64,000 nucleotides of DNA from Anadara kagoshimensis (Eukaryota; Mollusca; Bivalvia; Arcoida; Arcidae). Location of the stretch: contig CM037857.1 in the NCBI GenBank assembly GCA_021292105.1, positions 38,850,916-38,914,915 on the forward strand, in the 5' to 3' direction. Shown here one piece after another: positions 28,827 to 60,404 of this stretch (positions are counted from its first letter, which is position 1; every line of letters begins with the position of its first letter). The translations under genes were made by a program, and so were the position numbers. Under the pieces are notes generated by a model. The model had not been told where the DNA came from. It saw only the letters and a program-made list of their open reading frames with translations, and did not search any database.

Positions 28827-29266
28827 TATAATAACAATAAATCCTTCTGGAAATTATTGCCACCACTATTTCTAACCAGTTCTCACAACAAGCTTTGTTT
28901 GGTCCACATCACCATTTGTATAGCAGTGTAAATATTTTGGTCTACCATCATAATGTGGGAAAATTTCTGTTAACAACCACTGTGAATAAAACTACCAATA
29001 TCCACATTTAATCATTTCCAAAACAATTCTTTGATGTTAACTTGCAAGTATAATAAAACACTGCACCACATCTTCACAGCCTTGTTTAACCAGACTAGCT
29101 CAAACAAATCTGACATTCAAAATATCATATCTGTATACTCGCTAACTGTTGTCAAGACATTTGAGGGTATTCATATCCATTATTTCAGGGTAATATTATT
29201 CATTATACTGCTAATGTCTCCACATGACTTTGATTTAAAATATAAATTAATTTTAAAATCCTTTTA

Positions 29267-29376
29267 TCATCCAGACAAATCATTTGCGTGAAACATATCA
29301 ATGTCATATCTTTCTGCTCTTACTGTTCTCCCACCAAAATATCGTCCATTTAGGGCACTGCATGCTCTTTCCACTT
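29267..29376 (-). CDS. PUF60: PUF60 exon 13 (UHM end, stop)
   Basis: 110 nt: [25 protein letters not shown]..., ending ANDLSG and TGA. RYF is the R-x-F motif that UHMs use to bind ULM peptides of SF1/SF3B1. Acceptor TTTTCAG. Confidence 0.96.
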
Positions 29377-32300
29377 CTGAAAATAAACAAAGTAAAATGC
29401 AATATATGAGTTTATTATATAGCAATACATGCTTCACATAGAAATTAAAACCATAAGCGTGCAATAAATATCGATTTTTGCACACTGACTTTGTTCCAGT
29501 CTAATGTTTCCCAAATCAATTTTTTCATACTGCATGCTTGGTCACATGATGCTGTTGTTTATGACATCATGATTGTTGTCACATCATCACTGTGTTGTTG
29601 TCATACTGCACTAGTTCTTGTATTCATTTACAAGAACTAGTGCAATATTTATGTATTTTACGACAAAATGGTATATTAGATAAAATACTTGATGGAAGTA
29701 AACAAACTTTATTTTGCTATAATAAAAGGGTTATTGAACTGATATTATGAAATATTGTCCCTCGTTGACTCAAAATTTGCAATCGCAAGTTCATGCAAAT
29801 GTTGAGTCAACTCGGGACAATATTTCACAATATCAGTTCAATAACCCTATAACCATACTCAATACTAGTGCATTTTAAATGACGTTATCTCTTTACATGG
29901 AACCATTAAATTTGGAAATTTGAAACAAAGATAAAAACATTAAAACTAATGTCACAACTAACAAAGGATTTTAACCTTCAGTTAATCTGCTGTATGATTA
30001 TTCCTTTAATGGTTAAAACGTACAAGTATAGTGAAATATTGATTAGGCAACACTTCATTTTTGACTTCAAGTTATCCAAAAGTTCCAGTTTACAAATTTG
30101 ACAATACAACAACCAATTGGATAATGTCATATTTTTTGTTATTCGCTTTTCTCAAGCACTAATTGGATGATAAGGTTTATTGATAAATCCTCATTATTTT
30201 AAGAGTTTTTATTGTAACAGGTCGCATGACCAAATACTAACAAAACAATGATTAGCTCAAATCTGGTAATCAAGATGGACTTACAATTCCATATACATTT
30301 AGGGTATTAGTTAACCTTATGACACTTGATCTACTTAATTTAATTGTTTGGTTTTTGTTTGTTTGGGTTTTTTTTAATCTTTTTTTTATTTTTATTATTA
30401 TTATTTTTTTTTGGTTTACAAACACTTGGCATTGGATGAAGCTGAACTACATGTATTCAGAGTTGGGACAGCTCACTTCAGAAAAGAAGTTGTAATTGAA
30501 TAAATAGATAAAATGTGTAAAATGTAGGAGCCCAGACTTATTTTTAGGAACCACAATACTCATGCTGTGTACCGGCAGTATGATAAAATCTATTCTGTGC
30601 TTCTGGCAGGAAAATAAAACAAGAAGACTTACCATCCTGTGATATAAATTCTACAAATATTTTAACTATAACTTCAGCATCATCTTCTTCACTCTGTTTT
30701 TCTTGATAAATAATGACTCTGTTGACATTTCCATATTTTCCACATTCATCAGTTACTTCATTCTCTAGTTCATCATCCAAATCTTCTGGTCCAACCATAT
30801 TTCTAAGCACCATTACACGACTCTACAATTATAAAATTACCATACATTATAAAATTCAAGATAGTCTTTTCCTATTGCAGCTGATTTCAGGTTACCAATG
30901 CAAGTTAATGTATAGAAGGATGAATTTAAAGAACAAGTAAAACTACTGTTGGTATATGACCAGATTATTCTAAATCTGGAAATGGGTTCAACTGACATAA
31001 GGAATGAAATCCCATATATTAAATTTGCTTGGAACTATCATTTCCTCCATATGCTTCAAAACCTCCATTCCAGACAGCTGTTTAGATACCAACAAAGTTT
31101 AGCAAACATTAAAGTAAACAAGCGCATTTAGTGACTTAGGACCCACTGAAAGTAGGTACTTTTTGTAATTTGCACTTGTGTTCAAAGGACAATAACTCCA
31201 AGGAAAATGAGCAAATCATTTTATGTAAATGATCTGAACATTTTTTTTTATGTTGATGCTTTGTATGAAGTTTCATAAAATAGTGCTTCTTTGGAGAATG
31301 GCTCCAGGGAAAAAGTGTCAGGATGGACAGAAGTTTGAATTGGAAATCCCCCTTTCTTCAAAAGGAGGGGGGATAAATATATCTAAACCAAAAACCTATT
31401 AATACTGTATACTGAATAATCTGATGCTAACTAAAATTCTACCCAAGCCTAAACCAAAGATTACTCTCTTTTCATAAAGAATCTTCTAACCAGAGAACGA
31501 CAACTATTCTATTGTAATACTAACCTCTGATTTCCTCATTAATTTCTGCATGACCATATGTCTAGCATTACTTCCACTAATTTTCATATTTTCTTGTTGA
31601 GCTAGTGTCTGAGCTGGATCCTCCAGTGACGGTTTCTTTTCTTCCTCTTCTTTAGGAGGAGGCACACCTTGTGGCATCATCGGGGGAGGAAGGGGTATCT
31701 GTGATGGCATAGCAACTGGTGCAGGAATACTTGCTACTCCAACTAAAATTTATGTAAAATTTTTAAATGTCTTAAAAGAGAAGAAAGCATGTTAGCAACA
31801 TTAATAAATACTATTTTTTGGTGTCGTTTTTGTGACTTGGGAACAACCATAAATTCTAACAAAGATAGATAAACTCTATAATTAAGATGTGCTGAAGTAA
31901 CCAGTTTTCAAAGAAAATCACTGTACATCTTGTCCTTCTATGTCTATCAAAATGCTGTTACTGATACCCATGCAGCAGCCTCATATGCTATAAGTGTTCT
32001 CTGTACAAGTAAGGTAACAAAGTCATGTACTGAGCAGTGTGTGTGTGTGTGTGTGTATCCACATATTCTCACAAGTATTTCTACATAGACGTTTGATACA
32101 ACTTTGTTACTATAAACACAAAAGTGCAATGACTCCAGAAATCTGATGTATAATGAAATATAAACTCAGACAAATTATTGTTATTGTTCACTTATCCATG
32201 GTGTTTGGAAAAAATGTATCAAAATTTGCTACATTTAAAAAAAAAAAAAAAAAAAAAAAATATGTATATACAGTTGACTCTCGTTATCTCGAACTCGACG

Positions 32301-35300
32301 GGGAAATGCAAAAAGTTCGACTTATCCGGAGTTCGAGATAACCGATGTTAAAAACGACAACAAAAGGGAATTAACTCGTACACGCCTACCGGAAGTCGCT
32401 TCCGGTTTTATCTTGTCAAACTGTATATTGCCGTTTTCTCCTATATCATATGTATTCAAACATGATATATTAAAACTGCATTATTTATTATTTGTATTTA
32501 TAATTGAGAATGTAGTATATAAAAAATCGGGAGATTATCTGTTACTTGTTATTAGCCGACAAATAGTGGAGTCGGCTTTGGTCTCCATACCAGTTTCGCT
32601 TTGTGTACTTTAATCACCCCAAGCTTCCGGTTGTATAACTCAATTTGAGTAATGTTCACATCACACGCTTTCGGAAGCCATGTTCAGCTTGGCAGTAATT
32701 ATAACACCTGATAATCACCTGGATAGTTTAATTGCTTATGCAAGGGATAATAATTAAGGGCTTAAGGAAATTTGGAGGTCAGTGCAATGTTGTAATTTTA
32801 AAATCAACACGAGGCCGACAGTCAAATATTTTATTTGTGTCGGAATGTGTTTTTTTCTACCAAAAAATCTGTAGGCGCTGACAAATTTGATTTCTCAAAA
32901 TATTTTGTTCGAGTTAACAAATTTAATTTTCCTAAATTTTTTGTTCGAGTTAACGAGTGTAATTTTCCTAGGATTTTCATTCAAGGGGACGAAAATATTG
33001 TTCGACATATCAGAGTTCGAGATAACCGGAGTTATTTTGGTTTAATAAAGAACAACTCTGTTCGGACTTTTTAAAAAAGTTCGAGATATCCGAGTTCGAG
33101 ATAACGAGATTCAACTGTATATATATATATATAGAGAGAGATTACCTGGTGGAACTGGTATTGGTACTGGTGGCTGTATCATTCCACCTGCACCTAATGT
33201 TGGCATGGCAACTCCAGGTACTGGTGGTGGTAACTGTGGTGACCCTGATCCTATAGCAGGACTGCTATCAGAACCAGCTCCACCCAGACCGGAAGGTGTT
33301 GCAACTCCAGGTGGTGCCTAAAACATTGAGATTATATCAATAATTAAAAGTACAGAAATATTTCCTAAAACAGTTAATACAACATATATTCTACATTAAG
33401 TTAAGAAGTTTGAACAATAAATTTAGATTTAAATATTTGTTTATTTGGATTTAGAAGAATAATCTTTACCTCTATCCACTTGTTAATTTCTCTGCTTAAA
33501 ACCTTGATAATATCCGTGTTTTATTATACAGGCAAAAATGAAGTGAAAGAAACTGTCAAAATTCAAACTCAAATACTGGCAACATTAACAAATAAAATGT
33601 ATTTAAACATGCCACTTTCTATGCAAACGTGCTGCCACTGATGTTATGTCTTGTGTGTATATGTGCGTGTGTGTGTGTGAGTGTGTTTGTAGACACCTAC
33701 CAGAAGACCTATTTGTTGTTGAGCATCCATTGCTGTAATTTTTGCTGTCACTGCGGCTGCTGCTACTGCTGCGGCAGTTGGTAAACTACCAGGACCAGCT
33801 GTAGGAGCTAATGCATCTGGTGGAGTGATTGCCTACAGGATAGAAAGTGTATAATAAATAGTGGGTCTAACATTTTTCTTGATATAACATTAAATTAAAT
33901 TCAATACTATATGAACACAATGTAAAATTTGTTAAAACTGAAAGTTTGTTCCTCACCAAAGGGAAATAGTCAAAATGTTGGCAGTATGCACAAATGATGT
34001 TCAGATTATAATACACTGTATAACAAACATTATTAAGTTTCATTTGTTTTGATAAATTAATTCAGTACATACAAGATTTTGGTTCCAGTTTTCAAACGGA
34101 TGTAAAATAAGTCATGATGCTTGTCAAAATTAATTATAATGAAGGTTTGATCACACTACATGTATGTGCAAGACTGGAAATTTTTACTTTAAGTTAACAG
34201 TCTGGGCATCTGAATTAATGAATTTGAAATGGAGTGCATAGAATAACAGCTGGTTTTAAATAATAACTGAGATATTTTATTCATACTGCCCCCGATTTCT
34301 TGTCTAAATCTCTTGATGTCAAAACATGTTTTAGTAGTCTTCTCTAACTTTGATTCATTTCATGCTTTAGAATAAATGCTTTTTGGCAATGTAAAATCAA
34401 TCGGGATCCAATGATATAAATAAGATTTCAAGAACATATACAGGTATATAGTGAGAATACATCCACTACCAGTATTAATGGAGTTTGTGATCTTAACGTT
34501 TGTGCAGAACATTTACATCGAAATTTCCCAGAGTAACATCATTTTTATGGGAAAACGTGAACTGAAGCGATTCCATCTCCATTGGAAATAATTGTTCCGC
34601 AGAAACGTGATGGGGTATCATGTGGCACATTTGTGAGCTCCACTGAGAAACAAACTTCTGTTGTATAGGTATTCATCAGTTATGATATGACAGACTTACC
34701 CTTCCAACTCTTAAGTACTGTCCACCGAGATCAAACAGATTCATAGAACTGACTGCATCAAGTGCTGCTTGTTTTGTATCATACTCAATAAAACCATAAC
34801 CTCTGAAATACAGATTTTTATAACATCATTTGTCCTAATTTGAATTAAATCGGCATTGATTCAATATAATGTTTCGAAATGCATAATTTCAGAAGACTTA
34901 AACAGATCCAATTCTAAAGACGCCAAAGAATAGATCAGAGGACAAAAACCTTGTATTCATAACATTTGAGAAGCATTTATTGTACTTGTATTCAGATGTC
35001 ATTACTTAAAAGATCCTATGAAATTGTAGTCATTTCTAATTTTGTTTACAGCAAATGTAGCAAGAGTTTTTTTCTTTGTACAATGTCTATCATGATAGTA
35101 GCCATCATATTTTAACATCTCGTTCAAAGAACCTAAGTGTGGTGGTACAGTAAAACCTTATTATACCGCAATGTTTTATCAATCAATGCTTTGGCGTTAT
35201 AACATGCTTGGTGATAAACGGAGGGGGACTGACAACCGGAAGTTGATGTGTACTTTTTTCTATGGTCAAAGTAGGATACATCAAAATCGGAATTGTAGAC

Positions 35301-38300
35301 AGGTCACTATACTAAGATTATTATTAAGGAATTAAAGCAAGGAATACCTTATTGACTATTGGGGTTCGATAATTCGGCTTTTTACTGTATATATAAAAAA
35401 TCTTAATTTTTTTAGAAGCACAGTGATTTGAATTCACATTCCTGGACTTGTAAAACAAGTGACAGTTTCTCTACATAATCTCCATCGATGGGTTAGAAGC
35501 ATCAAATAATGATAATCAGGATTGATACCGAGATTACAGGGATTTTACACTGAATAATTTAGGATGAGAGATATTGATAGACAAGCACTAAAGGTGTATC
35601 AATAAAATAAGCTTCCACTGTTGCATGTTGGTTATAACATATAAAATAGATTTTTTTGTCTTGGACTTTAACAACAGTGTCTGCCTTTAAATTAACAACA
35701 AAGACAGTAAAACTAGAACTGTATTTTGAGACACCCCACCCCCCCAAAGTCTACATGGGTTCAATATTTTCCAATGACATTGACCTTTCTGATATGATCT
35801 TGGTTTAAGGTAATGACACACCTTTGGACCATAAAGATTATTCAAGTGAAGTTTTATGACCATTGTCCAAAGCAATTATGAGGTATGGCTGGACAGGATT
35901 TTACATGGACAGACAGACAGACATGGTGTTTCCTATATTACCCCCTCAAACTATTTTATAAGGAGTATAATAAGTCTACTTGTGGTAGGAGACTTAATTA
36001 ACCAAAAGTTTTTTGTCATCATTTACTTGGAGTTCTTCAGTAGAAATTGGGGGAAAAGATTTTCTTTTCATTTGGAAACAGGCCCATTTTCTGCCCTTAA
36101 ATCCCTAAAAAGCCTCATTTTATTAACTTACTTGTGTTTTCCTGGTTTTACAGATTCATACTCTAAACTACAAGCCATTATTTTACCAAATGCTTCAAAT
36201 ACACTGCAAATAATCAAAAGTTGAAAATATAAATGAAATAAAAAAACATAATCCATCAGTATTCTAAATACGCTATTACTTAAATTTACCAGAATGTGCA
36301 ATAATACAATAATCTCCTTCCACAGATGGTGTGAAAAATTCAAGATTATTTCAACTAATTTTGTGTAGTTCAATATCTAAAAGCAACAAACATACAGAAA
36401 GACGGAAACAAACACAAAAAGAAATATAGAATATAACTTTTGGTGTACTGTAAACTCGGTTTTATTGGCATGAAGGTAATTTTCGTGTTAATTAACGATC
36501 CAATTCATTCGTAAATTCAACATCCTCGCATAATTAAAGTATTCAGCTAAATTTTAAATGCTAGTCAATACCTGATGACTGAAAATAACCAGATTTACAG
36601 TTTATAACCAAAAATTTACAACATAAACGGAAAATTTGTTTAGAGCCCATATTGAAAACATACATACTTTTATTGTAAACCATACACAGAATGTAAAAAT
36701 AAATTATTTGGATTGGATTTCACATATAGTTGAAAATATGTTTTCTATACATTTTCCATATGGTGTCTGATGTTCTACATAGATAAAACATTTGTGCCTA
36801 TAATAAATTATCCAACATTGATCTTTTCATCAATTTCTCTTATTTCACCATTTACTTTGTAAGAATTACCTCTGGATATCGTGTTCTGTGAGATCATGGT
36901 GTATTGATGCTATGTATATTCTATTAAAGTTCTTAGCTTCTGCTGCTAACTGTTCAATAATTGGCTGTGCTTGAGGCATATTGCTGGGTCTACCAACCTG
37001 TAAACATCAACACAACATCAAATAACATTCAAATCAAATACAATGGAATCAGAACAAAATGTAAACAAACTCACATTTTTAATCATTATCTTTGAGTAAA
37101 ACACAATAACTAGCATATACATGTATGTTTACAACAGTCAGATATATAGTATTATCCAATTTTTGGTGTACCATTCAATTACAAATATTCAAATATTTTA
37201 CCATTATTTTTTTCTTAGTTTTTATTGTAATTTTCCAGTTTCACAGCAGGTGAATCATACACCCTGTTATGAATTTGGTCTTGCCAGGTACAAGTTTATA
37301 GTTAAATGGTGGATTTACCCAATAATTAATCAATTCACTTAAAAATAAGAAATAAGGCATTATTTTTACATTTCCTCCAAAGGGTTCAATGTGATTAATA
37401 TCTATGTACAAACAATAGTAAATTATGCCTGAGGTGTATAAGATTGATTGATTGAATGTTTTATGTTTCAGTCAAGAATATTTCACTTGCAGACATCACC
37501 AGCTATAAGTGTAGTATGCTCAGGGCAATGTACAGGGAGGGTTCTTTAATGTGCCTTGCCTGCTGTGACATGGTGCATCAGTTTTAAGGTTTCCTCCCAA
37601 GGACCCTGCGACTTTCATTTCTAAATAGAGTGCTTGGGGAAAGAACAGTCACTACCTATTGACAAGTCTTGGTCAAACCCTGGCTGGGGTTCTAACACAA
37701 ACTCTTCCAAAATGAAGCAAGCAATTTACTGAGCTACCATAGTGGTCCGAGGTGCACAAAAATGAAACCCAGACACCCAAATTACAAAGAAAGTACTATA
37801 TCATGAATAAAAATACAGCAGTTGTATATTCATGGGTTGTGGGTTCGAAAGGTCACCTTCATCTTCTACCCATACTAGAGCCTTAAAAATGCTCAATCCC
37901 AGAATAGTCATTTGGATGAGACCCAAAACTGAGGTTCCATTTCTCAGAACATGCTAAAGACATCTCTGTAGAGTTTGAAAAAGAAAGGCCACCTGTGGCC
38001 GCTACAGAGAGTGCAAATGTAATAGACTGAGCAAAAAGATAAAATTCTCTTAATATTACTGTAACAAACCTTAATATTTCTACCACCAATCATGACACCA
38101 TTCATCTGTTCTAAAGCTAATTGTGCTGCCTCTGGGATTTCATATTCTATGAAAGCAAATCCTTTGTGCTTGTTTGTGATTGGATCCCAGGATAGATTCA
38201 CACTTTTGATTGGTCCAAATGGAAGGAATGCTTGTTTGATGGTATCTTCTTTAATCTCAAAGTTGATACTTCCAACATATATTCTGTAAATATGAAATTT

Positions 38301-41300
38301 ATTAAGTGCAGTTGTATTTCACTAACAAAAACTTAATTCACTTTCAAGACTTTATTAAGAAATCAACTAAATGAATAAAATTTTCAAAGGAAACTTTAAA
38401 ATTTCACTTAAATTAGAAGTAAAATTTAAATTCATCGTTTTAATTAAATGATATTGCAAAACTAAAATTTAAAATGCTAGTAAAATGAATTTATGCAACT
38501 GACAAAACTTAATAAATTAAAACCATGACAACAGTAAATTTTGAAATAAAAAATACTAACAAAATCATCATATCAATTGAAATTTCATATTTATATTTTC
38601 AGCTTGTCTATTATTGAAGAGAAGACATAAACGAACAAAATACAACTACAGACACAACTGGAATTGAATTGCATGCAACAGAGAAAAATAATCAAGTTTT
38701 CTTATTTAAAAGTTGAAACAAAACTTTACAAAATTGATTTTTTACATAATTACTTGATTCTAGATGATGGTATTACCCAAGAGTTGCCTACCCTTAATAT
38801 TTTATCTTCATAAATAGTATTTTAATGTTTTGAAGAGTTCTGATGATGTTCATGTTGTACATATACCATAAATGAGGTATTGCACATGTTTATAATTCAT
38901 TATTCTTAATTATTATATAGCAATATACACTTAGCATACAAATTAAACGTAAAACCCCGAGGTGTTAGCGTGAAATATGGATCAATATTTGCATGCAAAC
39001 TTAGTTCAAGTCCGAGGTTTCCCAAATATTTTTTTCATATTGCGCCCTTTGTCACATGTTGTTACATGGCTGAAGACGTCATTGCTGTGTTGTTGTCATA
39101 TTGCACTAGTTCTTGTATCCATTTACAAGAACTAGTGTAATATTTATGTATTGTACGACAAAATGGTGTTTTAGATGAAATACTTGACGAAAGTAAAAGA
39201 AATTTATCTTGCTATATAATAAAAGTGTTATTGAACTGATATTGTGAAATATTGTCCTGAGTTGACTCGACATTTGCACAAGCTTGCGAGTGCAAATGTC
39301 GAGTCAACTCTGGACAATATTTCACAATATCAGTTCAATAACCCTATATAATATAATTAATATTTAATAATTTACATACGGTAGGTATGTACATGGAATT
39401 TGATATTCTGCTGAAGAACATGGGTAGTTTACACCAAGAGTAAGCAACTCTACTGAATCAGATTTCAAAATCACATATCAGAACTTATTCTCTGTCATGT
39501 GCCCTAATTATATAAATAAAATTCCTTCCTTATCCTATCTTAATATTAAATTCAAAGTTTCTTTTCACAATTCGATAACTTTAAGGAAACTCTACTTATT
39601 TCTTAAAATATATTTATTTTATAGAACCTGCCACCTTTGTAGTTCCCCATCATATTCCCTACATTTCCATAAGAACTGTATATAAAATATTATAAAATTC
39701 CATAGCATACTTGCACATTAAAGCAAGGGCTTGCTGTTTTTGCATCGTGTTCTGAAAATTTTGTAGTTGCTGAAACGAGACAAAAGAAATAAAACATTTA
39801 CGCATGGCTTTTACTTCCAATGAAAAAGAAAAAACCTGTAGGAGATTAAAAAAACATGTGAATAAAAATATCCATTCATACCTGCACATTAAAGCAAGGG
39901 CTTGCTGTTTTTGCATTGTGTTCTGAAAATTTTGTAGTTGCTGAAAGTATAAAATAGATTATAAGAAACGTATATCTTTAAGGTTCACTTTAAATGACCA
40001 GTCACTGGAACCTCCACAGCAAGCAGCTTCATGTGATATCAGAACACATATATATATTCAAACTTTCCCTGGTAAAAAATATTCTTATTACCGATTATAA
40101 ATAAGCAACTATCATACAAACATATCTCCTTGTTCTGACAAGGCATTGAAACAAAGAATAAAACTTGAGCAATCTTTTGCATGCATAACTTACAGGGAGC
40201 AGTCCTTGAGTTTAACTTTTGGTATAAACATCTAAACACAAGGGCATCATAAAGTTGTGTTTGAATTAGGACAGGTTGACCAAAAGTATGAAATTTTTTT
40301 CCCCTTGTATTAATTTTCTATTAGATGACTCTGGAACAGATTAATTGTGTTAACATCTTGAGATTCTTTCCTGATATTGAGGCGGACAGTTCTGAGATGA
40401 AGGAAACTGGAGTTACCTGGAAAGAACCACCAAAATTTGGCAAGCTAACTGACAATTTTTCTCATGCTAAAATTTTTTCCGAGTGGGATTTGTAAGTGGG
40501 TAGTGAGAGGCACTGTGATTTGTAAGTGCACATTTTTTACCACTAAGCCACTGTGACCCCCACCAGTATAATGAATTGAGTGGTCTATGATGTTTAATTA
40601 TCTGCGATATTTTCAGGTAAGTGTACTTGTACTCTATAGGCCATTGTAAGTATGTGGTAGCACAAAGCAAATTGGAAACAATTAATTCTTGAGATAAAAA
40701 AAAGGTTGTGTCATGAATAACTAAAACATTGTTACTGGTGTATGAAAACAGTCAACTTACTAAACTACTTGTATAACCAATCAACAGAAAGTGGCTAAAT
40801 CAACTACTTATATAACCAATCAATAAAAATCTGCTAAATCAAAGCTTTTCAAGGATTTTTGTATACATTTTTGCTGATTATCCTGAAGGTAGTGGTTTTT
40901 AAGATTAATTCAAAATCTAGTGCAGATTTAAATATATTTTTCTATAAGAAACAATCTGATGATTAGATATAAATATAGAATAGTTGGTTGGCTGTTATCA
41001 TACGTCAAATCAACAATGTTTTAGCTACAATCAAATAATAACACCCCCATTCCACTACACCAGATCCAAGTCATAATGACTGAATCTGGACTAAATATAG
41101 TGCTTAATTGTTTAATTTTTGTCCCTTCAATTAATAGTCTTTTAAAATGAAAAACTAAAGTAATATGAAGAGTTTCATCGGTGCTGTCTGAAAAAGCATA
41201 ACATGTCTGCACATTTGAGTCCACCAAAAACTTACAGCATTCCTAAAATAAAACTTTTGTAACAAAACAAAGACTCAAATCCAAAGGTATAATAAATGGT

Positions 41301-44300
41301 ACCTTAAATTGCTTTCCAACAAACACAGCAAAAGAATGTATCCATTAATTAGCTTTTTGTATCATACATGTATTGATGACTACATGTAACATGTATGATA
41401 CTATGGATGTCCAGAAAACACTGACTCAACTTAAAATCATTAGGAAGATTTAGCTCACATAGGACTGTATTTGATTACACAGGTTAATTTAACAAACAAT
41501 ATAAACATTGTGTCTTATTAAAGAAGTAAATTCAGTTAATTAAGATCCCCTGCCAGAAGGTACTTTTTGTGATTCACACTTATGTTCAAAGGGCCATAAC
41601 TCCTAGCAAACCAACTCAGGTTAATGATATGCACATATCCTATCAATATTGATACTTTGCACCAAGTTACATAAAATAGTGCTTTCAAAGTTTTGGAGAA
41701 TTACTCCAGACAAGAAGTGTCTGGGTGGACGGAAGGACAGACAGAAATTAGAATTTAATAAACACCCCCTTCTTTCTTTGAAAAGCAGGGTATAATGAAG
41801 TACTTCAGTTTACTCAAGATTCTGTTGTCACAAGTTGCACTCTGCAATTCTTCTTGGTCCAATCAAGTGTTAAAATGAAATCTGGTAGTTCTGACTACAG
41901 TTTAGTAATTAGAGATTTTTAGCACAACTATATTACCAGTACATCTTATCTGTCATATTACCAGTACTTAACTGCCAACATGTTTTAATATCTAACATTT
42001 TGGTTGATCTTCCAATTTACTGCAGGTTTTAATCTTTTTTTAAAGGTTCATCATAACTTACCTAGTCCTCCCAAACTGTTGACAGTACATATTGAACAAT
42101 TTACATGTATAATGATTTATTCCATTTCAGATAACATATATCCTAAGTGTGTGAGAATTTGTAATTACACTGTCTTAATACCTACAACTGTAATCCACAT
42201 AAGAAAAACTACACAAAGTTTTCATTCCTGATTGCCAAAATCATGATCAGCTACCAATTTCTTAAAACATAGCACTGCTGTGCTGCTGTACAGCGTAGTT
42301 AGGAAAATTGTGTTGTGGCAAGACAGAATATAACCGAAAATTCGGGGGGGGGGGGGGGGGGTTGGGTTCGATCTATGCATAGTCCGACGGATGGTTTTTT
42401 TTGGAAAAGGAAACAATGTACCAAACCATGTATTGCTGAATTAAATGGTAGAAAATAATAATTTCATAAATATATGAAAAAGACAATCGGTAATTGAAAT
42501 TTAAAAAAGTTGTACCCGATCGTTTTGTCATTTCGGATAGAGAGAAAGTAGAGTTTTGCAGATCCTGCCGTCGCTATGAGGGGGTACATTCTAGCGGTTG
42601 TATGTAACTGGATCATTTGCTGTTAATCTGGGTTTTAATTAACTGCTGATTATCACTCACAATATTCCCGTTTCATGTTAATGGTGAAGTACAGTTGGTT
42701 TACCAGTTCCGAATTTTTACTACCGAATAATCTAAAATTTCAACCCCGTTCAATTAAAAGGAATCGAAAAATAACTTTCTCAATTTGCTTCTACTTGAAT
42801 GTATGGGCATTAATTGTTTAAATAATATAAACTTCAACCGCTTCCTAAATGTATGTGCACGACAGGTCGACAGATTGTTGGTGACCTAGTTTAACGATGT
42901 AAACAAATCGTGATCACGGAAATGCTCTTTTCAAGAAAACATACTACCACGTGTTTTTGAGGACAGGTGTCGATATTTTGGAATCAGTAAACATCTGTAT
43001 TATTACACCACATAAATTTTATTTCCTCTGCTTGTGGATGACGTCTGCAGCAGCGCTTATATGAAACCCTGTTCGGAACTGGTAAAAAGACTGTATTTAA
43101 AATTTGCACACAACTGTACGAATTATCTCCCTTTCACGAAAGTAAAATCTAATCGATAAAGTTTTAAAATATGACACAATTGCCTCAACATCAAAATACG
43201 TTATCATAACCTTCAAAATAAATTTAAATTTCCGTAGATTTCACGAAGAATTAATTAAACAACCTGCCGTTGCTGTTCATTTCATAAAAAGTTATGATTT
43301 TACATCGTCGGACGCCAACTTCTCGAACTACTTTTTATTGTAAACATGAGATCAGTTCGCCAAATTGCAGAAATTATTAGATGCATCCCGTCGCAATATT
43401 TTACTAGATTCCGAAATGTATTCCGAAAATTTATTCTAAATGTGCATATGTAACCAAATGCATTACCCGTCTCAGAATACATATCTCACGATAAAACAGA
43501 TATACTTCTTTCACGCTCATTTACCAGGCGCACTATTTCCAGGTGTACTCATATCTTATAATTTCATAGCAAAGAAGCTCGATATCTTGGAAGAAAGCGA
43601 CAGATAGTGAACGCTGTACAGAAATTCTTTAGAAATAAAACCTTTTCAACAATTTTGTGTAAAAAATACTTCCAAGGTCACAAATTTTGGAAATTTGGCT
43701 ATTACTGTAATAATTTTATATTTGTGGAAACCTAGCGGATATATACAACTAATGTCTTGATATAGTGAAAACATTTTCAAAGCAGGCACATAAACCACAT
43801 TAAATCAATCTATAAACTAGAACTATGTTCAACTATCTCTTGAGAGCCAAATACCCACTCCTCTCAACAGTTAATGTTTTCTTGCGACCTTGACCTTTGC
43901 GATGTGATCTTGGTTCAAGGTCATGAAACACCTTTAGACCATGAAGATTATTCATGTGAAGCTTTATAACAGTCGTTCAAAGCAATTATGAGATATGACG
44001 GACAGACATGGCGATTCCTATATATTCCCCTCAAACTAGTTTGTGGGAGGAATAATCGGTATCTATAGTCTACCAATTTAAAACATTCTACTTGTTTATA
44101 CTTGTTAACAGCTAAAGTAACGCCCCAAAATACTAAAGTGCTGTTTACAAAACCTGGGACTTAAAACTTTAGTTTTAGCAAATATGTTTGACCTAGCCTG
44201 AAATCTATGTTGTGATGCAAAACATTTAGCAAAAGAAATGCATTGTTGAAAGACTGAAGTGATGGCGATGACCATTCATTTAATTAAATCCTTTTATATA

Positions 44301-47300
44301 CTTTCATGTTAGAAAAACAATGTTCTTTTTATCCGAATTAGCTGTATGTGAAAGTACCGGTATACAATACAGTAACAAATTTTAGAAAACTTACATTTCT
44401 TTTCTTAATAATCTGTACGGTGGAGATATGTTGAACAACTTGCGTTAAATAAAAACAAATCAGTTGTGCAAAAGCATACAGGCTGTAAAAGATTACATCT
44501 TCAACTGGTCATGAGATTGTGTGTTTTGAGAGTAGAACAATATGTATGAATCACTGTAAAATCTAGCTTGACATGATAACATATACATTACCTGGTGTTG
44601 ATGGGCTATGGTCTGTCGCACGAGAACACTTTTGATACTTTGTTCCATAGCATATTTCTTTGCTCTCTGGATGGCATCTTGTTGAGATGAGCTCAATTTT
44701 GGCAATGCAAATGGCTTTTGATCTCTCTTGGCTCCTGGTCCTTCCAGTAGAGGTCCTGACTGTTCCAACTGGTCCATTTGTGGAGACATACTCCCGTTGA
44801 AATCTGAAGCAAGATAGAATAGAATAGTAAATTTTTTACCTCTCCAAGTGCCTATAACATCTGCAAACTTGTAAATGCAATATAAATGGATTTTAACCCC
44901 CTCACTTTTAAACAAAAGAGGAAATGAATTGCAAAAATCACCCAAATGTGTTGGGTTTTTCATCAAAATGAAATATGCATTTAATTCAAAATTTGAATCT
45001 TTTTTAAAATCTAAAACAACATGTTTCAACTTTTCCCAAAAAACTTTGTTCATAATTTTCAAACCAAAGATTTCTCATTTACTGGAAATCTAATACTTCA
45101 TGATAGAATGAAAATTTGTTCATCAAATGGCTGAAAAAATTGGGGAGAAAATGAAGACATGGCGCAGATGTTACAGGCTAAAATAAAACCTAGAAAAAGA
45201 CGATAAACACAGATAACAAAAAACAAATTATATACTACTGAAATGAAAGACTGTAAAAGAATAAAATGCTGCATAGTATTCCAGCATTGAATTCAATCTT
45301 TACCGCTATTTTTCCATGACGGAGGACCGAGAGCAGATGGTTGTGGCAACGAGCCCTCGACATAGTATTTCGGTCGGCACTAGTTTTGGGGAACCACATA
45401 TTTGCACTTGATACTTTTATCAATATGAAAAACACAGAAAAGTAAAAAGAAAGAAAACCATGGATGAGTGTCAAATATTTCAAACGTTTTTAAAAAAAAG
45501 AAAATGATGCAGTGATGCTTTCAAAAATTCAAACAAAATACTTGCAAAATGTCTGATAATGATTTTTTTTCACAAAGCCAAATTTTGGAGAAAAAAAACA
45601 ACCAAAAAGTGTTAGACTTTAATAATTAAATCATTGTTTAAGATGGACATACAACAAAACTTAATAATTCTATCCATACAAGATTTCAAAACTTCGATGT
45701 CAAAATTTGGATTTAAATTTATCAGACATTTCACAATATTTATAAACCTAATATATACACATGATACAGTTGTTGTACAAATATCAGCTGAAACAAAACA
45801 AGTTTATTTTCCATTTCTTTCTAATTTATGATGTCTTAAAAAAGTCATCATCTACTCAAAAATTAAATCAGCTTTTAGTGCCATTATCAACATAAATGAC
45901 CACTAACAATATAATAACAGGGGGAAAATCATGAAAACTTTTCAAAAGCAATAATTATACATACATGTGTCAAACTTATACATTATAATCTAATAATAAA
46001 TCCTGTTGTATTGTTCCTAGATTATTGTTTTAAGTGTTCAGAGCCAAAAACTTGTTCAAGTGGGTTGTGGTTGCCACAACTGGCTGTGACTAAGAGCACA
46101 TGACACCCTCCTTGTAGGATGTAACTTTCACACCAACATTAGAGAGCAATATAACTAAATGAAGACAAGCTTTTGACAAAATTGCCCCATAGTTTTGTTG
46201 TTTGATTTTTAATTTTTTTTAATATAAATCTTGTAAATTATTACATCTGAAGTTTTGACTGACAAAAATATATTGGATACAAAGATTATTTATAAACTTT
46301 AATGACATTTTGTGAATGACAATAATCTAGGAAAAAAATCAAACACTTTTAAAAAGTCAACACCACCACAATTCTGAATTTTGTTTCACCTATAAAAGAA
46401 AGTAAAAAGAAAATGTAATTAATAATTAATCCAGATGGGTCATTTAAAAATTAAAATACTAAATTTGCCAAAACAAGATTTTTCTATTTAAATTCACAAA
46501 ACATAACTCCATGTTATAAATCTGAAAATTGGTCAAACTATGGTGGGACCAATACATGTATCTACAAATGTTGGTCATAATGTATCAATGAACTGTCAAG
46601 TAAACATTTTCCTTTAATCCTGGACCAATTTTAATTAGGCTAGCAAATTCACAATTATCTACAATTGTATTAGACATACTCTGTGACAATTTATTAAAAA
46701 TTATATCAAAACACATAGAAGACAAACAGTTGCAAACATCATTATGACCAAATTCTAGATGCATCAAGACAACTATCTCACAGGAGATACTGTCTTATGA
46801 TTCATAAACATTTAAAACATTCTTTATGAATGGAAAAGCCAATAACTTGAAGAAAATAAGTAAAATATCTATTTTCTAAATTTAATAAATTCATATATGC
46901 CTCTTCTTTTTTGTTTTATTTTTTGGTAGAATTCTACACCAATGAAATAATTCATGATACATTTGTAATAACATTATTGCTATTCAAATTGTAGCCATAA
47001 AAACAAAGACTGCATCTATCGGTGTGAAAATTGTTGATTATAATTAGTCCCTCCATTGTTATTCCACCAGGATGACCCATCTGAAGGCAAATCTAGAAAA
47101 TTAATATACAATACATTATACATGTGTGCCATGCATTGAAAATTTTGCTAAACACTAAAAACAAGATAAGTTTGAAAATATCACAGAGTGGTGTTTTCAA
47201 ATAAACTTTTTTCAAGCATGGAGGGAGAGGATCAATTTTTTAAAGTATAGGTTGCCAAAAACTAAATACAAGTATGAATCCAACATTATCTATATTAAGA

Positions 47301-56531: not shown

Positions 56532-57298
56532 CTGATTTTTCTAAATCTAAAAATAAACATACAATGTAGGTAATTTTGAAAGTGTCATTAATGATAGAAA
56601 ATTTTAGTGATAGTCTTGACTTATGTCCATCTCTCCTTGTGGGCCAGATATCTTTCTCCTCCAAGAATCTCTGTTGGTAGCTATTTTAGCAGCTGCACTC
56701 CATGTCACAAGTCCAAAATCCGAGCTTTCCCTTCCAACAGTCCTGCGCCAGGTCTCCTTCGGCCGCCCTCTTCTCTTTCCTTCTGCTGGTGTCCATTGCA
56801 AAGCAATCCTTGGATGTTCATCTGGCTTCTGTCTTAATATGTGTCCAATCCATTGCCACCTCCAATTATCTTTTTTGTTTTTGTTCTTTCTCTGATTTCC
56901 TCATTTGTAATATTGACAGGCCAGTATATTTTGAGGATTCTTCTAAGACATTTGTGGTGGAAAGTGTCCAATAACTTTTCATCCCTGGTGGTCATTCTCT
57001 ATGTCTCGCAACCATATAATAGTACCGACACTACATTGGACAGGTATATTCTGCTCTTGGTTTTCCTGCCATACTGACTGCTTTTCCACACCTTGCCTAG
57101 CTTGTTGAATGCAACTCTTGCCTTCCCTATTCTTGCTTTGATGTCACAATCTGTCCCTCCTTTGCTGTAACTGAAACTCCAAGGTAAACAAACTTGTCAA
57201 CTTCCTCGACTTCCTCATTTCCGATTTTGAGCCTGCTTTCTCCCTTCATATTGTTACCCGCATTCAATTTCATTGTCTTAGTTTTCTTGACATTTATT

Positions 57299-58608
57299 TT
57301 AGGCTTGTTGTTTTCCAAAATTGTTTACATTGTTCACCTTCTGTTGTATGTTGTTCAGATTGCAAGATATTAGAGCTAAATCATCAGCAAAGTCCAGATC
57401 TTCAAGATTTTCCATCATTTTCCATCTGATACCAGTGTTTCCTTCCTCTGTTGCTTTCCTCATTATCCAGTCAATGATAAGTAGGAAGAGAAGTCCGGAC
57501 ATCACACAACCTTGCTTAACTCCAGATATTACTTCGAACCATTCTAATGTTCCCGAGTCATCCAATACTGCACATTTGTAGTCAACATACATGGTTCTCG
57601 TCATTCTGATAAGCTTATCTGGTATGCCATAGCTTCTCATGATTGTCCAAAGCATCTCCCTATCCACACTGTCAAAGGCCTTTTCATAATCAACAAAACA
57701 GATATATGCCGGTGTTCCACTCTACTGCTTGTTCTATAATATTTCTCAAAATGAAGATTTGTTCTGTTGTACTTCTTCCTGGTCTGAGCCCTGCTTATTC
57801 CTTTCTCAATCGTTTATCCACTCCATCTCTTACTCTTCTAATTATAACTTTACACATCACTTTGGCTGGTACTGATAGTAAAGTAATCCCTCTCCAGTTG
57901 CCGCATAAAGTCAAATCCCCTTTCTTTGGTAGTTTGACTATCAATCCCTTACTCCAATCATCAGGCATTACTTCCTTGTCCCATCTTTCTGAACAAATCT
58001 TTGAATAATTCTGCAGTAATATTGATATCTGCACACATTAATTCTGCTGTTATTGAATCCACTCCTGTTGTTTTCCCTTTTTTCAATACTTTAATTGCTT
58101 TCTTTATCTCATCTTTATTGATGTAACTGGTGTTGATCTCGTCAATTTCATTTTCACATTCTTCCACTTCTATTCTGTCTGTTGGTGCTGGCCTGTTTAG
58201 CACTTCTATACAATGTACTTTCCATCTTGCTCTTATTTCACTCTCTGTTGTTAGTATTTTCCCATTTTTATCTTTTACTGTTGTTGATTTCCTTGGTCTG
58301 TCATTACACAATCTCTTTGTGGCGTCATACACTCCCTTCATTTGGCCCTGGTTTGCCGCGTCCTCTGTTTCATGTGCTATACCGTTTATCCATCCTCTTC
58401 TATCATTTCTTAAACTCTTTTTTACTTCATTGTCTCTATCTCTGTATTCCTGTCTATACTTTTCCTGTAATCTTTCAGACTTTGTCTTGTTGACCTTGGT
58501 TTTGATTTTCCTTCTGTCTTCAATCTGCTTCCAACTGTTCTGACTTATCCGGTCTTTACTTTTATACGTTTTATATCCAATGGTGTTCCTAGCCGTTTCG
58601 TTAAACAC
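57299..58608 (-). pseudogene. LINE reverse transcriptase remnant
   Basis: Three overlapping open blocks in different frames give the RT in order: linker and fingers (KTTGVDSITAELM), palm start (GLRPGRSTTEQ after a stop at 57795), KQGC and FADD. FADD is the catalytic box (F/YADD). Broken by frameshifts. Confidence 0.82.
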
Positions 58609-59431
58609 TGATTTTATTACGTTCCATTTTTCCCTCTACCTTTTCCTCCTTATTCCTGTCATCTTCTATACTTTCGCTTTCATCCTCCTGTAAACAACTG
58701 AACCGATTTTTCAGTTCTAACACAAACTTTTCCTTCATCTCTGGTATTTTTAGTTTGTTGACCTCATATTTCCTAGTCTTATTTTCACTCTTTACTACTC
58801 TGTTCAGTTTGAGTTTTGTCTTGGCTATTACCAGACTATGGTCACTTCCCACATCAGCCCCTTGATATTTTCTTACGTCTTGGACTGACCATCTAAACTT
58901 GGAGTTGACAGCTATATGGTCTATCTGGTTCTTGTATTTACCATCTGGTGAGGTCCATGTATATTTATGTATATCTTTATGAGGGAACATGGTTGATGTT
59001 ATCACGAGATTATTCCTGGCACACAGGTTAACAAATCTCTCCCCATTGTCATTTCTTTGTCCTGTAATTAGGGCATGGTTTCCTACAATACCTTTATCTG
59101 CCTCTTCTGCTGTTCCTACTTTGACATTCCAGTCGCCCATAATTATCAATAAGTCATGCTTTGGTACCTGCTCTATTACTGACTGAACCTGCTCATAAAA
59201 TTCATCTTTTACTTCTTCATCATCTTCGTTTGTAGGAGCGCAGACCTGTATGACTGTAGTCTTGATATACTTAAAATAGAACCAAGCCGTTATGATTCTA
59301 TCATTCACCGGAGTATACCCTATCAAGCTCTTTTCTATCTCTTTGTTCAATAATATTGCCACTCCGCCTTGATGTTTGTCCTCTTTTCCTGAAAATATGA
59401 TTGTTTCATGAGTGGACATATGTATTTTCAT
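58604..59431 (-). pseudogene. LINE AP-endonuclease domain remnant
   Basis: 276-codon open stretch with GDxN and SDH catalytic motifs of the exonuclease-endonuclease-phosphatase fold, followed by a Lys/Glu-rich linker. It starts inside the domain (the first beta strands with the N and E residues are missing). Frameshifted into the next block at about 58605. Confidence 0.8.
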
Positions 59432-59440
59432 CTCAAATGC

Positions 59441-60404
59441 ACCCCGATCTTTGAGCTACCCTTCATTGTACCCCTTACACAACTACATAAATAGTAAATT
59501 CTTTAGTAATAGTAAATTACGTCAATCGAAAGGCACAGCCATGTTGTCAAAGTTTATAGGCCTATATAAACATCGACTAAAATACATTTTGGTGCATTAA
59601 TTTATTATTTACAGGAGATATTTATAATGCATAGATTAATTGAAATATTGGTTTTAATCAACGATTCGGCTCATGTAAGTAAATTGATACCCATTCCATT
59701 GAAAATCTACAAAATAGGATTATTATTTTTTGTTAAATGATTGCTTTTTCATATCATTTTGTGAACTTAACTTGAATTTAGCACCGCCAACGTTACGACA
59801 CGGTTTTGAAATTCATATTGGGGGACAAGAAGGTTATTTAAATACATGTACCAATAAGTTGTTTATTATATTAGAACCAGGTAGGTCTAGTAATAAGTTC
59901 AAGTGAAGCGGCAAATGAAAATCCGCCATTAACCGTTATTTGAGAGGGGATGTGATATCACTTTGCCAGGGGTGTGATGTCATTTTGCCAGGGGTGTGAT
60001 AGGCCTATCACTTTGCCAGGGGTGTGATCACTCAGGGGATGTCACTTTGTCAGGGGCGTGATATCATCCAGGCTGATTTCAATTTTTGTCATTTTTGACT
60101 TATCACATAGAAAAAATGATATTAGTATTATTAAAAAAACCCACAATAAAACTGTTAATATAATATCCACATAAGTTATCTAATAGACATATTAACCAAA
60201 AAACGAGCTGCAGTGTACACGTACACAAAAGTATGGCTACAATATTGTACATGTATCACAATGTGTTATGCATCTTTGAATGTCAATCTTGATGCCATCT
60301 ATTGATACACCATGTAAGTTGTCACAGTCGAGGTCAGGCAAGACGTCACGTGTGTATTGTTTGTGACTGTTCTTTTCTAAGCACTAGTCACCTGACCCTT
60401 ATGA
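59441..60404. other. Unassigned stretch with a short minisatellite
   Basis: AT-rich. Holds the CAGGGG(T)GTGAT minisatellite at 59952-60066 and otherwise nothing recognisable. Confidence 0.5.
59952..60066. repeat. Short minisatellite, ~26-36-bp unit
   Basis: Four to five copies of 'TCACTTTGCCAGGGGTGTGA' with slippage. Confidence 0.8.

Follow-up and report, generated by a model that had tools for sequence, protein, structure and literature searches.

Exon 4 of the gene for the splicing factor PUF60 (half-pint) is present in tandem in Anadara kagoshimensis, where two 59-nt copies, here called A and B, are identical at 57 of 59 bases and separated by 112 nt. Our preferred and still tentative reading is that this duplicated coding exon, with a length that is not a multiple of three, regulates how much PUF60 is produced, in the manner of a splicing valve. 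The sequence was taken from assembly GCA_021292105.1 (contig CM037857.1, positions 38,850,916-38,914,915 of the forward strand), and all positions given without further label refer to this 64-kb window, the whole stretch of DNA that was analysed. The gene model lies on the minus strand and spans exon 3 to the stop codon in exon 13, with exons numbered as in the original prediction. All of its introns are GT-AG, and its elements are as follows (a slash marks the exon-intron boundary).

44592..44803, minus strand: PUF60 exon 3, ending IAHQHQ in phase 0
39882..39940, minus strand: exon 4 copy A, 59 nt, encoding 19 residues, with split codon AG encoding Arg with exon 5 and donor CAG/GTATGA
39836..39837, minus strand: inner AG (cctacAG) with a T-rich stretch ahead of it
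39770..39881, minus strand: intron between the copies, 112 nt, GT...AG, 49% T, free of stops in the frame read from A through to B
39711..39769, minus strand: exon 4 copy B, 59 nt, encoding the same peptide as A, with split codon AA encoding Lys with exon 5, a weak donor (CAA/GTATGC) and a pyrimidine-rich acceptor
38070..38283, minus strand: PUF60 exon 5, encoding RRM1, its first base completing the Arg/Lys codon
29267..36997, minus strand: PUF60 exons 6 to 13 and the stop codon, TIGR01645 half-pint family

On its match to TIGR01645, the curated half-pint model, the gene housing both copies is the PUF60/half-pint splicing factor. The modelled protein scores 676.3 bits with copy A and 673.7 bits with copy B against a cut-off of 443.95, which, together with the identity at 57 of 59 bases, upholds the original prediction of a duplicated exon in PUF60. 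The RRM1 segment can be aligned with solved PUF60 structures, which we take to be human, and Arg occupies the Arg/Lys position in all three alignments displayed. PUF60 is apparently single-copy in its own genome, as a 244-residue PUF60 query returned 16 genomic matches, seven on the PUF60 gene itself and nine elsewhere at 28-38% identity. A retrocopy or paralogue was considered as the source of the exon, and none is present among these 16 matches. Prokaryote-genome and viral contigs yielded no relatives, the 37 and two pattern matches found there being without tblastn support, and no RNA families reached gathering thresholds over window positions 29000-46000.

The two differences between the copies fall at exon position 24 (ACA in A and ACG in B, both encoding Thr) and at position 59 (G in A and A in B), where the codon split with exon 5 becomes Arg or Lys just before RRM1. 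Similarity outside the exons is confined to a common TTTCAG upstream (6 bp) and GTATG downstream (5 bp), and the match of A to B within the 64-kb window is far above chance (blastn E 1.3e-26). The coordinates, the 59-nt lengths, the 112-nt spacing, the two differences and the end of similarity at 5-6 bp are all as first described, and base 59 of each copy bears out the predicted exchange of Arg for Lys. A third copy of exon 4 was sought in the same window at blastn E 0.01 and none was found; among the 11 modelled exons, exon 4 alone is duplicated there, if two 16-17-nt matches to exon 11 are set aside. The 97% identity of A and B could in itself point to a duplication made during assembly. This explanation is barely credible, as the flanks of the copies are unrelated, the copies are parted by an intron with its own splice sites, and the 230-nt block of A, intron and B was found once in the 36-contig, 1.115-Gb assembly of its own genome; on the differing flanks and the single genomic occurrence, we ruled out an assembly artefact.

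Copies A and B are homologous neighbours that agree in length and phase and are each bounded by GT-AG sites of their own, and the pair can be interpreted as one of the frame-enforced tandem exons, a known class. With A alone or B alone, the model reads 535 residues from exon 3 to the natural stop. With A joined to B, a TAA ends the modelled stretch within copy B, 106 residues in, and with neither copy, a TGA is met at codon 9 of exon 5, exactly the frame arithmetic that had been proposed. Stops ahead of later exon junctions are presumed to provoke nonsense-mediated decay (NMD), and since both of these stops lie upstream of such junctions, NMD would be expected in either case. The frame trap itself is an automatic result of duplicating an exon with a length that is not a multiple of three, and such exons occur in 377 of 629 human MXE clusters according to the available portion of PMC5740500.

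Two in-frame routes lead around the trap. If the intron at 39770-39881 is kept, 230 stop-free nucleotides (2 mod 3) join exon 3 in frame to exon 5, and if the inner AG at 39836 is used from exon 3, the frame is kept through an extended copy B of 125 nt. Under the first route, the 230 nt might form a single composite exon, or an exitron, in which the retained 112-nt intron adds 57 in-frame residues. An open frame across 39958-39662, which takes in the stop-free 230 nt, is in keeping with this, but an open intron of this length is expected by chance in 8.6% of 5000 shuffles and occurs in 150 of 2340 slices of the neighbouring introns 3, 4 and 5. The inserted peptide moreover looks hydrophobic and GT-AG sites of ordinary form bound the intron, so that we consider a composite exon or exitron very improbable; given a chance expectation of 6-9%, the open intron is not built upon here.

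Donors were scored by simple pairing with what we take to be the sequence of the U1 5' end, a score not trained on this organism, and by this measure the donor of copy B (-1.6 kcal/mol) is the weakest of the 11 modelled, the 10 others lying between -5.1 and -9.5 kcal/mol. The acceptor of copy B contains 17 pyrimidines in 20 positions, the top value among 12 acceptors, and that of copy A contains 14 in 20, again by a simple count that is not organism-trained. The base responsible for the change from Arg to Lys is the last base of copy B, where it removes one U1 pair and thereby weakens the B donor. The intervening intron has a T content of 49% relative to a mean of 35%. Introns 3 and 4 were cut into 853 overlapping slices of 112 nt, 14 of which reach at least 49%; this comparison favours any real intron because the slices may be without a 3' splice-site tract.

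Under the valve reading, copy A would be the default exon, as it combines a good donor with the Arg found in PUF60 proteins of known structure. Recognition of copy B would be conditional, as suggested by its possession of the weakest donor despite the most pyrimidine-rich acceptor and a T-rich 112-nt intron. Joining of B to A would generate an unproductive mRNA, presumably destroyed by NMD, while B alone would be an occasional substitute for A. PUF60 binds U-rich tracts and, more speculatively, abundant PUF60 may promote B and so limit its own output, as described for U2AF1 and RBM39; by analogy with such factors, PUF60 autoregulation through the exon pair is plausible.

The weak B donor might equally signal a dying copy, in which case copy B would be a silent duplicate that is seldom or never spliced, its donor having decayed or never having been good. 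Consistent with this, the B donor is the poorest in the model, B loses the Arg of the solved structures, and a mere two differences in 59 would require little time if the copy is young. On the other side, B retains an open frame and a GT donor, and its acceptor has the highest pyrimidine content in the gene. Were B both old, as the unrelated flanks suggest, and unused, it should also have gathered more substitutions. A silent duplicate is in our view unlikely, though it is the alternative to the valve that we take most seriously.

We infer mutual exclusivity from the reading frame, and this part of the original prediction stands insofar as inclusion of A and B together breaks the frame, but simple tests gave no clear enforcement of exclusivity by steric hindrance or RNA structure. 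A motif scan of the intervening intron for yUnAy placed candidate branch-point adenines at positions 19, 23, 36, 61 and 92, of which only that at 92 falls inside the 36-nt AG-free zone of copy B and the first three come before the inner AG. A steric block would call for a branch point usable by B within about 50 nt of the upstream donor, and the scan gave no clear sign of one. The local RNA over the exon pair has no special fold (z 0.13). Pairing of the exons with the intervening intron was equalled by 6 of 20 shuffles for A and 2 of 20 for B, pairing with intron 4 by 18 of 20 and 20 of 20, respectively, and pairing with intron 3, assessed for copy A only, by 5 of 10. If anything, the strong donor of A opposite the strong acceptor of B would promote the joining of A to B.

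These results also weigh on the possibility that A and B are a true mutually exclusive pair maintained for the sake of the protein, with Arg or Lys before RRM1 tuning RNA binding. The reading frame stays complete with either copy, the frame imposes exclusivity at the protein level, and Arg is found at the same position in solved PUF60 structures. However, the change is a mild one, the half-pint model scoring 676 bits with Arg and 674 with Lys, simple tests uncovered no clear enforcement, and the base concerned closes the exon, a position that pairs with U1. The amino-acid change may therefore be a by-product, as it coincides with the base that weakens the B donor, and tuning of RNA binding strikes us as an improbable purpose for the pair.

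A plain tandem duplication that included flanking sequence would leave an intervening intron that matches the outer flanks. Compared without gaps, the intervening intron agrees with the upstream flank at 24 of 100 positions and with the downstream flank at 35 of 100, and local flank alignments are at shuffle level in six of six tests, with 16-70% of 300 shuffles scoring equally high. Since similarity to the flanks is lacking along the entire intervening intron, a simple tandem copy of recent origin is disfavoured. In the exons themselves, A and B show one difference at about 10 synonymous sites, and the probability of one synonymous difference or fewer is 0.011 or 0.0017 given a neutral divergence of 50% or 60%. 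Either the duplication would be old, with constraint or conversion acting on the exon, or the copy would be young and cut almost exactly at the splice sites; the old duplication appears likelier, since exact breakpoints at both ends would be a coincidence. Why duplicated exons stay so similar can be asked cleanly here, given two almost identical copies amid unrelated introns.

As a control, other nearly identical exon pairs in unrelated surroundings were sought in nine myosin stretches of the same genome, in part on the plus strand only and with low-complexity masking, and no usable pair was present among the matches listed. Other arrangements were observed at these loci. At C11:32453000-32459000 (stretch L020), a unit of about 97 nt is repeated eight times head to tail at positions 1969-2740 of the stretch. 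The unit consists of a 3' splice site and the beginning of a myosin-motor exon, and the full exon seems to continue from the last unit only, giving an array of competing acceptors. The same splice-site and myosin-motor-exon unit of about 97 nt occurs in at least five repeats at about 2121-2600 of stretch L021. Several myosin-head matches that agree or almost agree in profile span and score occur in pairs 150-360 kb apart at C1:42.81/43.02, C5:65.84/66.20, C18:4.08/4.23 and C14:40.71/40.90 Mb, an agreement that suggests recent large duplications or retained haplotypes.

The introns of PUF60 and the remainder of the window contain repeats of their own. A near-perfect palindrome with 56-nt arms and a 10-nt loop (RNA fold z -18.5) occupies 39224-39345 in intron 4 and has no match in Rfam. 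A 21-nt piece of its arm is found again in intron 12 at about 29739-29836 as two copies facing opposite ways, one with one mismatch, and with this recurrence in mind the palindrome is probably a foldback mobile element of MITE-like type. About 200 nt of intron 3 (about 40361-40561), some 420-620 nt upstream of copy A, form a dispersed repeat: of 1050 candidates, 40 were scored, and at least 39 further genomic sites match at 72-80% identity. Elsewhere in the window, broken open frames on the minus strand at 56607-59455 presumably derive from a non-LTR retrotransposon, as they resemble its endonuclease and reverse transcriptase.

Among the literature matches listed, as judged by titles and abstract openings, none describes a duplicated PUF60 exon in any animal; alternative splicing is reported for rnp-6, the nematode half-pint homologue (PMC2265522, in the text available). 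The comparisons that follow likewise draw on excerpts of the papers cited. The tandem exon arrays of Dscam resemble the PUF60 pair in having duplicated exons and introns of about 100-200 bp; in contrast to the near-identical PUF60 copies, the paralogous Dscam exons are described as diverged and without evidence of gene conversion (PMC3236188). The exon pair 4a/4b of OGDH, reported to be PUF60-regulated, likewise has a short U-rich intron between its exons (118-131 nt in birds and mammals), and its exclusivity is enforced by distant branch points near the donor (PMC7969005). In the PUF60 intron, unlike that of OGDH, the AG at positions 45-46 would intercept a donor-near branch point. Knock-down of PUF60 is reported to shift the exon pairs of both U2AF1 and Ogdh (PMC5224494, PMC7969005). 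RBM39, a U2AF65-related splicing factor, limits itself through inclusion of poison exon 2b, a parallel to the valve proposed here, although exon 2b is additional to the coding exons and not a copy of one of them able to take its place (PMC10477243).

The closest precedent for the PUF60 pair is vertebrate U2AF1 (U2AF35), with exons Ab/3, also named 3a/3b. Both genes encode splicing factors of the 3' splice-site pathway and contain two homologous exons in tandem that share one length, which is not a multiple of three, and in both, inclusion of both or neither exon leads to a stop, with NMD reported and poison-exon autoregulation proposed for U2AF1 (PMC6547761, PMC5224494). According to the excerpts, U2AF1 transcripts with both or neither exon are cut by NMD (PMC5224494), exon 3b is probably a poison exon, and its inclusion rises on depletion of NMD factors and falls on depletion of U2AF1 (PMC6547761). 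The U2AF1 exons are 67 nt long, 68.2% identical and differ by seven amino-acid variants (PMC6547761), whereas those of PUF60 are 59 nt long, 97% identical and differ by one Lys/Arg. One more specific reading, which we hold to be rather doubtful, is that PUF60 acquired a duplicated-exon self-limiting switch in this lineage independently of vertebrate U2AF1, its exons having been kept near-identical as RNA while the flanks on both sides were entirely replaced. Synonymous-site constraint or local conversion would then preserve 59 nt that serve as both essential coding exon and poison exon. If copy B is used, PUF60 would be a second 3' splice-site factor besides U2AF1 controlled by itself through a duplicated, frame-breaking exon, suggesting a design reached repeatedly in the 3' splice-site pathway.
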